Positions 7,389-13,518 of a stretch of DNA of 64,000 nucleotides are shown in pieces. This DNA comes from Arthrobacter sp. AZCC_0090 (GTDB lineage: Bacteria; Actinomycetota; Actinomycetes; Actinomycetales; Micrococcaceae), in NCBI RefSeq assembly GCF_014207375.1, contig NZ_JACHEE010000010.1:93301-157300 (forward strand). The letters run 5' to 3'. The notes below the pieces were generated by a model that saw nothing but the letters and a program-made list of their open reading frames with translations, was not told where the DNA came from and did not search any database. Within the stretch, counting starts at the first letter, position 1, and every line of letters starts with the position of its first letter. The translations under genes were made by a program, and so were the position numbers.

Positions 7389-8011
7389 CTAGTTCAAAGG
7401 GACGTCGAAGTTCTGCTTCGTGATGTTCTGCCCGTCGGAGGTGCCGGCGGCTTGTCGTTCGTAGCCCAATGTCAGCTTGGTCTGTGGCGTGTGCAGGATG
7501 AACACCATCCAGCCTTCGTCGCCGAACAGCGGGCCATACCCGGCGTCTTTGACGGCGCCAAGCAGGTCGTCGAGGCCGCCGGAGATTGTCGGGATAGATG
7601 CGCCGCCGTTGGCTCCGACGATGTAGAAGTTGTCGGCTCCGAAGCTGCTATAAAATTTCGAGCCGGTACTGACCTTCGCCGTCACCAGCACAACCTGCCC
7701 GCCGTGCAGCGCGGCCCAGTGATGTACAACCGCTGATGGCGGTGTGAAGTTTGCGACAACGGACTCGATCTGGGCGCTGTTACCCATCACCGGGTCGCTG
7801 ATGCCCTGGTTCACCGCGACCGAGCCGCCGCCCGCAGGAGTGGTGGCCGACGGGCATCTGCCGACGGCACTGTGTTCGACTCGGTGGCAGAGGATAATGC
7901 AGGACGCGATGCCGCACTGCTGGTCGCCGTCGCACCGCCCGGGGCGGAGCATGCCCCAATGAGCAATACCAACATCGTGGCCGTGGCGAGCGCGAGTGGA
8001 GGAAAATTCAT
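7389..8011 (-). pseudogene. Frameshifted lipoprotein gene
   Basis: The ATG at 8011 follows a TTGGAG ribosome binding site and starts a classic lipoprotein signal peptide with lipobox LIGAC, then an Ala/Ser/Thr linker. That frame runs into a stop near 7811. A second frame continues the protein from about 7855 (ATTPAGGGSVAVNQG...) to 7389 with an orderly soluble domain (VVLVTAKVSTG, DLLGAVKDAGYGP). The two frames join near GATGCCCGTCGG on the minus strand. A one-base indel is enough to explain this: either a real pseudogene or a sequencing error. The intact protein would be about 207 residues of unknown function. Confidence 0.65.
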
Positions 8012-9171
8012 AGGATTCTCCAAGTTGAGACCGCGTGGGCCGTCCCATCGGGGCGGCCCACGGATCTAACCGCGTGCGTGTGCGCCGCATGCGGTGTGCT
8101 AGATTATTGCGTGCCCCAAACAGTCGGCATGCACACGTCACCGATGTCTGGGGCACGGCCGGGCTTGTTGCAACGAGTCAGGAATCGATACCCCGCACCT
8201 GGCACTATCTAAGTGCCTGCGGGCGGCGGATCGTGACGCGAAAAGGCCGATGGTGTGAGATCAGCTCCTTTGGTCCCCGGCTCATGGCAGGCGACAGGCG
8301 CCCAGGCGGAAACGGGGAACCCAACTCGGCGCTCCAGCGCTCACTGAATACGGCTGTCGGCCAGGGCCAAAGCGGGGCGTCCAGGTCGCTTCGCCTCGAT
8401 TGAAGCGGCAGCCCCTGGAGTCCACCCGCGAGCTCCAACCGGTCAGCTATCAGACGTACGAACGGATCAAGAAAGACCTGTCAGTCAGGGCGACGGCGGG
8501 CGGAATCTGGGTTGTTCAAGAAACGGCAGCGTTATGGGTCGTTCCGGAGGGAAAGCGATCATGACGGACCTCAAGGCAACGCTCGACAGCTACACCAAGG
8601 ACGTAGAGCCCAAGCTCAAGAGCTGAAACCTGTTGGGTGATCGGGTTTGTCGCAATCCCGGGTCTCGACAAGCCCGGCCACCCTGGCCGAAAGACCCGAC
8701 GTCAGCAACGACGAGAACACCATACGTTTGGGCGATCCACCGACACCGGTACCTGGCCCCTGACCCGGCTCCTGTTGGACTACTTGGCAAACCGCTGCCC
8801 AAACCTGGACACCGCAGCCACCCCCGGATGCGAAGTGGCTATTCCCAAGATAGGCGCCGGGATCGCCCTTGCGAATTTCCAGCGTCTAGTCGACGGGTTG
8901 TCCGTCCTGGCCGACGCCGGAATGACCCTCAGCGAGATCATCTTAAGCGCGACAGACGTTGCCGCCGAAGCCTCCGGGCTCCGCACAAAGTGACGGCCGC
9001 CTCATTGCGGGCCCGAGGACAGACGGGCCGACGCTGGGGAAACTCCAGGCGTTCCACGTCACGATCGGCTCGAATCGCTCACTAAATAGTTGTCCGGATA
9101 CCAAGGACCGTGCACTGCGATTCGCCCCCGTAACGTCGGTGCATGCGTCTGACGTGAATACGCCAGACGGG
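8012..9171. other. Gene-poor stretch with small fragments
   Basis: Besides the amidohydrolase remnant there is a 21-codon ORF at 8561-8626 (starts MTDLKATLDSYTKDVEP) behind a GGAGG sequence, and upstream of it an open frame with the pieces SYQTYERIKKDL and IWVVQETAALWVVPEG. They look like ends of lost genes. Nothing complete is supported. Confidence 0.4.
8790..9075 (+). pseudogene. Remnant of the C-terminal part of an amidohydrolase
   Basis: The frame ending at 8993 reads LSVLADAGMTLSEIILSATD followed by VAAEASGL. This matches the end of metal-dependent amidohydrolases (typical: LVEAGMTPLEALRAATSVAAEALGL). The expected next segment, GRLAPG...ADL, appears one frame over as GRLIAGPRTD at about 8993-9030. 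The N-terminal metal-binding part is absent. A frameshifted gene end is the simplest reading. Confidence 0.45.
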
Positions 9172-11626: not shown

Positions 11627-11892
11627 CAATTCTAGTGTGAAGCCGCGGACACAGAACCCCTGACGTGCGGACGTGATGACCGGCGCGTTTGTAAGGACGA
11701 TTGTCGGACCCTGTAGTGGAGCCTTTTGGCGGTTTGCTGCTGTCTTCGGCGCCAGCGGGAGCGTTTGAGAGTATGTTCCACTCCGGCCGCGAGTTCGGTT
11801 TTAGAAATTGGTTCTAGAAACCGCGTCATGGTTGGCGGGTTCCAGCCACTACCTACTTAAGGTCAATAATTTCCACGCTCTAAAGGACGGCA

Positions 11893-13518
11893 ATGGCGTC
11901 TGGTACTACTCGTTCAACGGCCGACGCTGTCAGCGACGGCCAACTCATCGCCATGGTCCGTAACGGGGATCTGGATGCCTATGACGGGCTGTACGCTCGG
12001 CATGTCTCCATCGCCTCCACGGTGGCTCGTAAAAACGTTGACAACTTCAGCGACGCCGACGACGTCGTCGCTGAAGCATTCCAGTCCGTTCTGCAGAGCC
12101 TGGTGGCGGGCAAAGGGCCTGAACACTTCTTCCGTGCGTACTTGTTGTCGGCAGTGACCCGGCTTTCCCACCACAAGAACCGGAAAGCCGGCCGCACGCT
12201 GCCGACCAGCGACGAGACGGTCCTTGACCACAAAATGACACCGGACGATCCCGCCATCCGGGCCTTCGAGTCACAAACCGTGGCCCGCGCCTTCCGCTCG
12301 CTACCCGAGCGTTGGCAGTCGGCGCTGTGGTACCTGGACGTGGAACGGATGAAACCCGCCGCCGTCGCTCCGATCATGGGACTCACACCCAACGCCGTCT
12401 CCGCGCTCGGCGTCCGGGCACGGGAAGGGCTGCGGCGGCAATATCTGCAGATGCATGTCAGCGAGACTCCGCAGGGCGACTGCACGGAGTTCGTCTCCCA
12501 GTTGGGATCCTATGTTCGCGGTGGTTTGTCCAAATCGGCCGAGGCGAAAGTCCGGGACCACCTTGATGGCTGCGCAAAATGCACTGCCGTGCTGCTGGAC
12601 CTCAAGGACGTCCAGGGAACCATGCGGGCCGTGCTCCTGCCCTTGATCACGGGCGTCCCCTTGGCTGCGTGGGGAGGGAACGCCTCAGGGCTGGGCGTTG
12701 TGGGCCAGCTACGTGCGGCGCCAGCGGCATCCCGGGTGGCCGGAATCTCCCACCCCTTGTTGATGTCCATCTTGGCCGTGCTCGCCGTGGGACTCGTGGT
12801 GGGCGCCGTCGGCACCATAGAGGTCCTGACCGGCCAGCCCACACCAAGGGCGTATCAGGGCGCTGAGATACACACCACCCAGCCAGCCCTCCCAACGCCG
12901 GCACAGCCCCAGGCGCCCGCGCCCATTCCCTCCGCAGCGCCCGTACCGTCGCCGCCTCCGGCATGGCCGAGCGAACCGGAGACACCGGTGATCGTGGAAC
13001 CTCCCCTTGCCGCGCCGGCACCTGTGCCAGTTGCAGCGCCGATGCCGACCCTCGCGCCAACCCCCTCACCGACGCCGTCGCCCGTGCCGACTCCCACGCC
13101 CACATCGACCCCGACCCCGTCGCATGTGCCCACTCCCACTCCCACTTCGACCCCCACGCCGAATCGTGCGAAAGTCAGCGCTACCACGAGCCGGACCGAT
13201 TCCGGTACGGATCCCACGACGGCAACACTCCAGACCGTCTTCACCCTGTCGCGAGGATTCGGGAGCGCCACCGCCGACTTCTCGGTCAACACCCCCGGCT
13301 CGATTTCGGCCAGCTCAGTCACTGCCCCCGCGGGCTGGAGCTGCGCCGCGAAGCCACTGGATCTCTCGAGCATCAGTTGCACCACGGGTTCGGTGCAACC
13401 TGGCGAACTGAAATTCACGTTCAACGTCAATATTCCGGACTACTGGCACGGCCACACCCTGACATATGGCTTGAGTGGACCTGGGATTGCTGCGAATACC
13501 TTCTCCTACGGCTTCTGA
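11893..13518 (+). CDS. ECF-type sigma factor fused to zinc-finger, membrane helix and Pro-rich extracellular tail
   Basis: The 541-residue protein has sigma region 2 (about 15-95, including FSDADDVVAEAFQSV), sigma region 4 (about 128-185, LPERWQSALWYLDVERMKP, then a helix-turn-helix), a zinc-finger anti-sigma motif with Cys197, His223, Cys227 and Cys230, one membrane helix (288-309), a long Pro/Thr/Ala linker (320-430) and an outer C-terminal domain of about 110 residues. The sigma factor and its membrane anti-sigma sensor are thus one polypeptide, as in the ECF52/53-like groups of actinobacteria. To free the sigma part, proteolysis or a conformational change is expected. It probably senses an envelope signal; targets are unknown. 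Confidence 0.85.
   Translation: MASGTTRSTADAVSDGQLIAMVRNGDLDAYDGLYARHVSIASTVARKNVDNFSDADDVVAEAFQSVLQSLVAGKGPEHFFRAYLLSAVTRLSHHKNRKAGRTLPTSDETVLDHKMTPDDPAIRAFESQTVARAFRSLPERWQSALWYLDVERMKPAAVAPIMGLTPNAVSALGVRAREGLRRQYLQMHVSETPQGDCTEFVSQLGSYVRGGLSKSAEAKVRDHLDGCAKCTAVLLDLKDVQGTMRAVLLPLITGVPLAAWGGNASGLGVVGQLRAAPAASRVAGISHPLLMSILAVLAVGLVVGAVGTIEVLTGQPTPRAYQGAEIHTTQPALPTPAQPQAPAPIPSAAPVPSPPPAWPSEPETPVIVEPPLAAPAPVPVAAPMPTLAPTPSPTPSPVPTPTPTSTPTPSHVPTPTPTSTPTPNRAKVSATTSRTDSGTDPTTATLQTVFTLSRGFGSATADFSVNTPGSISASSVTAPAGWSCAAKPLDLSSISCTTGSVQPGELKFTFNVNIPDYWHGHTLTYGLSGPGIAANTFSYGF

Follow-up and report, generated by a model that had tools for sequence, protein, structure and literature searches.

We analysed a 64,000-nucleotide stretch of the genome of Arthrobacter sp. 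AZCC_0090 (the window; contig NZ_JACHEE010000010.1, positions 93,301 to 157,300 of the forward strand) for a gene at 11893-13518 (+), which starts with ATG, ends with TGA and codes for a 541-residue protein that fuses an extracytoplasmic function (ECF) sigma factor to its own anti-sigma and surface parts. The genome (G000, 4.92 Mb) holds the window on contig C10, window position 11824 corresponding to C10:105124. From the N-terminus the protein consists of sigma-70 region 2 (residues 33-101; 11989-12195), sigma-70 region 4 (residues 129-178; 12277-12426), a zf-HC2 anti-sigma zinc finger (residues 197-230; 12481-12582), a single predicted transmembrane helix (residues 289-307; 12757-12813), a Pro/Thr-rich stalk recognised from its sequence and by orthologue comparison (approximately residues 313-424; 12829-13164) and an outer domain (residues 425-541; 13165-13515), all on the plus strand. 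The zinc finger scored 31.3 bits in Pfam (cut-off 22.2), and its ligands C197, H223, C227 and C230 were invariant in 15/15 aligned relatives. These residues form the H-x3-C-x2-C motif with an upstream Cys of the zinc-associated anti-sigma (ZAS) domain and are predicted to bind zinc. The transmembrane helix was called by hydropathy (mean 2.62). The C-terminal end (...NTFSYGF) does not carry the LPxTG or LAxTG motif, transmembrane segment and basic tail of a sortase substrate.

The sigma part matched its profiles just below or below their cut-offs, with 23.6 bits for Sigma70_r2 (Pfam cut-off 24), 18.3 bits for Sigma70_r4_2 (cut-off 25.7) and 39.7 bits for TIGR02937 (NCBIfam cut-off 42.9). The best NCBIfam model was PRK05602 (residues 5-188; E 1e-20), far under its own equivalog cut-off, and four solved structures, including SigH, SigE and sigma-E, were related to this part. 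On these sub-cut-off matches region 2 is followed by region 4 with no region 1 or 3, which is the layout of an ECF sigma factor. We do not take the low scores for decay, because many core residues of both regions were invariant in the alignment of 15 relatives, all eight relatives scanned passed the Pfam cut-off for Sigma70_r2 (though only 1/8 passed that for Sigma70_r4_2) and the ratio of non-synonymous to synonymous change (pN/pS) was low in the sigma part. Compared with the orthologues L057 and L062 it was 0.09-0.13 in the sigma part and 0.08-0.26 in the finger, with 0.38-0.49 in the stalk and 0.38-0.48 in the outer domain. Both orthologues have the same architecture and share 94% and 88% identity, respectively, with the window protein over sigma part and finger, the stalk being the least conserved part (53-63% identity). 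Together with sigma-plus-finger relatives (E<=1e-40) in 45/149 genomes sampled from the host's family, our own included, these orthologues exclude a chance arrangement. The sequence-only reading had placed both sigma regions, an anti-sigma finger with these four ligands, a membrane helix and an outer domain in a single chain; Pfam, NCBIfam, conservation and hydropathy agree, and we regard the single-chain protein as confirmed. Degeneracy of region 2 or 4, which that reading had named as a point on which it could fail, was not borne out.

The outer domain had been described as unrecognised, a description that no longer holds. The structure prediction proposed for it was run on residues 425-541, and the AlphaFold2 model was a confident all-beta fold of nine strands (predicted local distance difference test score, pLDDT, 92.4; predicted template modelling score, pTM, 0.85). 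W482, C484 and C496 were invariant in 17/17 aligned outer domains. The best solved match in Foldseek was 9ifr, a CLIPPER domain (template modelling score 0.72), followed by Candida Als adhesins, with integrin ectodomains, collagen-binding adhesin domains, SdrD and a shaft pilin among the further matches. DUF11, since renamed CLIPPER, belongs to the stalks of fibrillar adhesins and in many cases contains an isopeptide bond (accessible part of PMC12617251). By the model, then, the outer domain is an immunoglobulin (Ig)-like sandwich closest to the CLIPPER/DUF11 type of adhesin domain, and its nine predicted strands agree with a CnaA-like Ig sandwich of 7-9 strands. The DUF11 profile gave no match to the window protein at E<=1 in Pfam, and neither did any carbohydrate-binding module. 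As to the Lys-Asp-Asn isopeptide triad of CLIPPER domains, the window protein has a lysine near the N-terminal strand, which only 5/17 rows show (by eye); a conserved Cys pair is found instead. Ig-like domains from outside adhesion (adaptin ears, complement C3) were matched as well, and the fold alone is therefore no proof of an adhesive role.

Upstream of the gene, the alignment of the window gene with its orthologues showed a conserved block holding a promoter-like element at 11824-11850 (+), with a -35-like CGTCA (11824-11828), a 17-bp spacer and a -10-like CCACT (11846-11850), starting 69 bp before the start codon. Relatives were collected by scanning named genomes, with the best 80 of 332 confirmed stretches retained; these include Arthrobacter, Paenarthrobacter, Psychromicrobium, Sinomonas, Cellulosimicrobium, Isoptericola, Demequina, Cellulomonas, Kribbella, Kocuria, Nocardiopsis and Streptomyces records. 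The pattern was counted in a set of 80 loci with a called ECF reading frame. Six loci (L060, L065, L077, L098, L109, L119) had been collapsed as duplicates on a 95-residue key that also joins different genomes, e.g., L065 with L053; L055 was excluded for a stop inside its ECF gene. Counts over 94 loci cover the wider set with 14 loci that have no called ECF reading frame. CGTCAYGR-N14-CCACT occurred 20 times in 1.51 Mb of the 80 loci, compared to 0-2 times for each of nine control patterns. Nine of these sites were upstream of an ECF gene, nine at an adhesin- or pilin-type gene and two elsewhere (L053, minus strand, and L073). Of the adhesin- or pilin-type sites, seven stood before the downstream adhesin or tip-pilin gene, which in L064 had no detected sorting signal and in L066 runs off the contig, and two were on the divergent side, where the L037 site precedes a surface-protein gene and the L057 site was assigned by likeness only, its gene being uncalled. 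Over the 94 loci (1.77 Mb) the looser CGTCA-N17-C[CG][AT]CT was found 57 times, compared to 4-34 times for the other 12 spacers from 11 to 23 bp. In the 350 bp that precede the ECF gene, the 17-bp spacer was found in the ECF direction in 12 loci and divergently in 27, with 0-1 loci each for every other spacer.

A matrix was built from 20 sites, leaving out two off-context sites and adding two from our own genome outside the window, and it was applied to 18 hold-out loci absent from it (L205 and L207 had been dropped as repeats of L076 and L070). It gave 28 matches of at least 13 bits in 14/18 loci, all within 3 kb of the ECF start, compared to 0-2 in five Markov shuffles, 0-2 with ten column-shuffled matrices and 4 with the reversed matrix. 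Matches stood before the ECF gene in L189 and L190 and before genes for LAxTG proteins in L189, L191, L196 and L198; some of the remaining ones preceded other divergent or downstream genes.

Our own genome has four perfect sites, three of them in one 26.5-kb stretch (C10:78.7-105.2 kb). Besides the site before the ECF gene, one (C10:90227-90253) lies 111 bp before the start of a giant repeat surface-protein gene. The other (C10:78695-78721, +) is like the tip-pilin promoters of L053, L067 and L071, with 80% identity over 80 bp to that of L053. The fourth (C5:61102) falls within a helicase-like gene, on its antisense strand. One-mismatch sites occurred genome-wide at chance level (35 compared to 34 for the control) and were not used as a regulon; the one in the window, at 8212-8238 (-), 84 bp (from 8240) upstream of an uncertain reading frame at 7389-8156 (-), may be due to chance. 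Among 23 genomes of the genus, the five with the family hold 12 perfect sites, of which nine are no more than 30 kb from a family gene. The element at 11824-11850 predicts autoregulation of the ECF gene, and the predicted regulon of the gene itself, adhesins and pili is well supported.

The genes beside the ECF gene point in the same direction. In the neighbour tables, which cover 67 of the 80 loci, predicted sorting-signal genes made up 16/249 neighbours at positions ±1-2 compared to 2/462 at ±3-6 (Fisher P = 2.7e-6), and the two far ones are members of pilus operons (L042, L059). The neighbour in L043 is a 978-residue protein with LASTG, DUF7507 repeats, SpaA_3 and DUF11; that in L037 has 440 residues, LAYTG, a Big_8 domain and a sub-threshold ALS_N match, and that in L044 is a sorting-signal protein of 2,747 residues. 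Genes for a sortase and for a shaft and a tip pilin occupy C10:79.6-85.2 kb of our own genome, and the giant repeat gene starts at C10:90338, 15 kb left of the ECF gene, and ends at about window position 314. Its 3' end (3-314, +) codes for the sorting signal LAFTG and repeats that look like DUF11 by eye. The assembly has a gap of 97 N (C10:93204-93300) within this gene, adjoining the left edge of the window.

A 41-residue remnant of an ECF outer domain (C10:90060-90182, +; 46% identity), directly before the giant gene, is to judge from its sequence a decayed family member. A sigma-only paralogue of 231 residues (C10:78782-79477, -; L007:3786-4478) adjoins the sortase gene; its regions 2 and 4 score above the Pfam cut-offs, and the finger and the rest of the anti-sigma part are missing. 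The window protein is the only full-length family member found in this genome. Because of the remnant before the giant gene and the paralogue beside the sortase, we infer that the layout of ECF gene, element and adhesin gene seen in L043 and L044 once existed here too. The pilus operon is reversed compared to L053, which together with the C10:78695 site indicates a possible past inversion. Inversion as a phase switch was considered and dropped, because no convincing inverted-repeat pair was found at the operon borders and its 5' region holds at best a weak element variant (CGTCA-N17-CTACT in L042, poorer in L059 and our own genome). A small protein resembling a single CLIPPER/DUF11 domain by eye is coded at L043:8001-8579 (-), L044:10881-11513 (+) and L007:10414-10989 (-); in L043 and L044 its gene is read away from the ECF gene, and the L007 copy had no Pfam match. 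The first approximately 110 residues of the window reading frame at 7389-8156 look like another frame, and it is possibly a broken gene for a surface or secreted protein.

A gene divergent to the ECF gene and directly upstream of it recurred in 58/94 loci (46/80 of those with a called ECF reading frame) and was elsewhere within the locus in three (L042, L059, L062). It was not found in 33/94 loci, the window locus included, some on short contigs; a copy in our own genome (C10:86263-87054) lies close to the pilus operon. The divergent elements pointed to this partner gene in 25 of their 27 loci and to the surface-protein side in two (L037, L057). The product, of approximately 266 residues, has a helical N-terminal part and a GGDEF-like C-terminal half. 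In Pfam and NCBIfam searches of 20 partner proteins none was above the cut-off (GGDEF_2 in 1/20 at E 0.02), and the partner profile matched GGDEF proteins (E 4e-6) and FimX (E 1.6e-5) in the PDB. The model (pLDDT 90, pTM 0.59) also matched GGDEF folds in the fold search. By eye the GGDEF signature is replaced, e.g., by GDGLY in L089, and cyclase activity is therefore unlikely. As a guess, the partner may tune the sigma factor via nucleotide binding.

Family members matched below E 1e-80 in at least 9/37 genomes of the genus (our own included), several of which have more than one paralogue; this search scored up to 24 candidates per genome, so the counts are a lower bound and absences are absences from that search. 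One genome of 3.2 Mb (G186) holds nine family paralogues at E<=1e-40. Sigma part and finger are constant across the family, and the part beyond the transmembrane helix varies from approximately 160 to approximately 1,700 residues. The longest outer parts are those of L096:6902-13351 and other long members, some of which gave weak DUF11, CARDB, NPCBM_assoc or CBM_5_12 matches when scanned. In four proteins of 864-882 residues from four genomes (L053, L065, L067, L071), the part beyond the helix is a whole Gram-positive sortase pilin. All four carry W-x-Y-D-V-N-V-Y-P-K-N, which we take to be the pilin motif, Y-x-L-V-E-T-K-A-P-x-G-Y, presumably the E-box, and a terminal LPxTG-type signal. The two scanned in Pfam (L065, L071) contain GramPos_pilinD1, pilinBB, SpaA and an LPxTG anchor. 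These fusion genes adjoin pilin and sortase genes, as part of pilus operons of tip pilin, shaft pilin and sortase in L053, L067 and L071. Among L065, L067 and L071 (L053 was not in this comparison) pN/pS was 0.12 in the sigma part and 0.21-0.23 in the pilin part, and this purifying selection in both parts makes an assembly error unlikely.

The sequence-only reading had called the chain a complete signalling line. The parts of the chain stood; the scope was too narrow, as the element, the adhesin and pilus genes that carry it and the degenerate GGDEF partner had gone unseen. We think that the window protein is probably a sigma switch that spans the membrane as one chain, is released by proteolysis and then drives its own gene and those of surface adhesins and pili. 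At rest, the zf-HC2 finger would keep the N-terminal sigma factor inactive at the membrane, as expected from its domain family. The CLIPPER/adhesin-like domain on its stalk would sense the state of the cell surface; the likeliest cue would be whether sortase-anchored adhesins or pili are present, assembled or loaded, or what these touch. The signal would lead to cleavage in or near the transmembrane helix and release of the sigma domain; a gene for a strong Peptidase_M50 match, a site-2-type protease, is present at C2:109443. Proteolytic release is the expected mechanism for ECF48, ECF52 and ECF53 and by 2022 had been shown only for IutY, according to the accessible part of PMC8999054. The freed sigma factor would recognise promoters of the CGTCA-N17-CCACT type and raise its own expression together with that of sortase-anchored adhesin and pilus genes and, in many relatives, of the divergent gene for the GGDEF protein without catalytic signature. 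The adhesin-type domains on both sensor and predicted targets and the pilin fused to sister sensors suggest that what the sensor reads is the condition of the fibres under its own control, which is the boldest and least supported step of this proposal.

Several observations weigh against the proposed switch. The adhesin and pilus sites of our own genome are not adjacent to the ECF gene but lie 15 and 26 kb away from it, and the C10:78695 site faces the 3' end of the pilus operon, leaving its target unclear. Within 350 bp of several hold-out matches there was no called gene start; some hold-out loci are close relatives of training loci; and four (L197, L199, L206, L208) had no element match of at least 13 bits. 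No match of 13 bits was found anywhere in 12/39 Arthrobacter-type and near loci, and one genome with the family (G005) has no perfect site. One of the 16 near sorting-signal genes (L049) was a false positive, and such genes were found at ±1-2 in 15/28 Arthrobacter-type loci and 1/39 others. The 38 of these 39 loci without one would fit an ordinary fusion of the ECF52/53 type that senses polysaccharide or envelope stress, its closeness to adhesin genes being incidental, and the domain order is indeed that of the ECF52 protein SCO4117 (accessible part of PMC5826349). We consider this explanation unlikely, with no carbohydrate-binding domain in the protein by Pfam and no NPCBM match in our own genome (among the control genomes NPCBM matched only in Bacteroides ihuae). 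Nor would a chance neighbourhood be expected to give the hold-out result, or an element that ECF and adhesin genes share at a constant 17-bp spacer. The six perfect sites in the 18/23 genus genomes without a detected family member, and the lack of the element at many family loci, raise a different doubt. Binding of the sigma factor to the element is a prediction from sequence, and another regulator (a different ECF sigma factor or a repressor) could own it, the fused protein then being its target and not its source. The two-part element with its strict spacer is like a sigma promoter, it stands upstream of the ECF gene itself and 28/28 hold-out matches were close to a family gene, which makes a foreign owner quite improbable. 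That the sigma part is inactive, and the protein a relic or a pure surface protein, could be argued from the scores under curated cut-offs for regions 2 and 4 and from the two broken family members in the genome; the invariant sigma core and its pN/pS, below those of stalk and outer domain, make this extremely improbable.

A bolder version of the switch, which we hold to be rather unlikely, has the sigma factor physically wired to adhesive fibres. Sortase would link the chain of the pilin-fused sisters, whose Spa-type pilin retains the lysine of the pilin motif, covalently into the pilus base or the cell wall, and pulling on the pilus, or its failed assembly, would expose the cut site and free the sigma factor for the production of more pili. 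The window protein would then be a device of this kind without the covalent link, and its adhesin-like domain would report on those surface adhesins that are under its control.

The order of sigma factor, anti-sigma, transmembrane helix and outer domain is already known from ECF52/53-like proteins, a likeness pointed out by the sequence-only reading and supported by the accessible part of PMC8999054. The wiring to adhesins, the element, the GGDEF partner and the sigma-pilin fusion were not found in the literature searched, mostly at title level, which does not establish their absence from print. The known systems most like it include SCO4117 of Streptomyces coelicolor, likewise an actinobacterial chain of ECF sigma factor, zinc finger, transmembrane helix, Pro-rich extension and outer domain with proposed proteolytic release and autoregulation (accessible parts of PMC5826349 and PMC8999054). 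The window protein shares the C-terminal zinc finger, transmembrane helix and Pro-rich extension that define ECF52; however, its outer domain is a predicted adhesin-type Ig sandwich and not a carbohydrate-binding module, its predicted targets are sortase-anchored adhesins and pili, and its element CGTCA-N17-CCACT differs from the SCO4117 motif CSGYN-17 bp-SRHA given there. In IutY of Pseudomonas putida (ECF243), sigma factor and membrane anti-sigma also form one chain, freed by Prc and RseP (accessible part of PMC8999054), but that protein serves Gram-negative iron-starvation (aerobactin) signalling, and the same part describes no adhesin-like outer domain for it.

FimX, with its degenerate GGDEF domain, resembles the C-terminal half of the divergent partner, which differs in its helical N-terminal part, its place opposite a sigma gene and a length that leaves no room for an EAL domain. 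The RsgI/SigI systems keep sigma factor and anti-sigma factor in separate proteins, and SigI is not counted among the ECF factors. Like the family studied here, those of Clostridium thermocellum comprise several sensors with differing outer parts, tied to cellulosome genes, and RseP cuts RsgI in its transmembrane helix (accessible part of PMC12203970); the substrates sensed, however, are polysaccharides. The CLIPPER domain of fibrillar adhesins shares the predicted fold of the window outer domain, which differs in having no DUF11 sequence match, in the rarity of the N-terminal-strand lysine among its relatives and in sitting on a sigma factor and not in an adhesin stalk. In the literature consulted, a studied regulon exists for a single ECF52 protein, SCO4117, and the signals of the ECF48, ECF52 and ECF53 fusions are unknown. 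By linking sortase-anchored adhesins and pili to a sigma switch made of one chain, the promoter-like element would offer a direct, testable set of targets. The pilin-fused sisters open a simple route to the question whether a tethered sigma factor lets bacteria sense the state of their pili, or a force that pulls on them, and the conserved GGDEF-like partner may connect the switch to nucleotide signalling.

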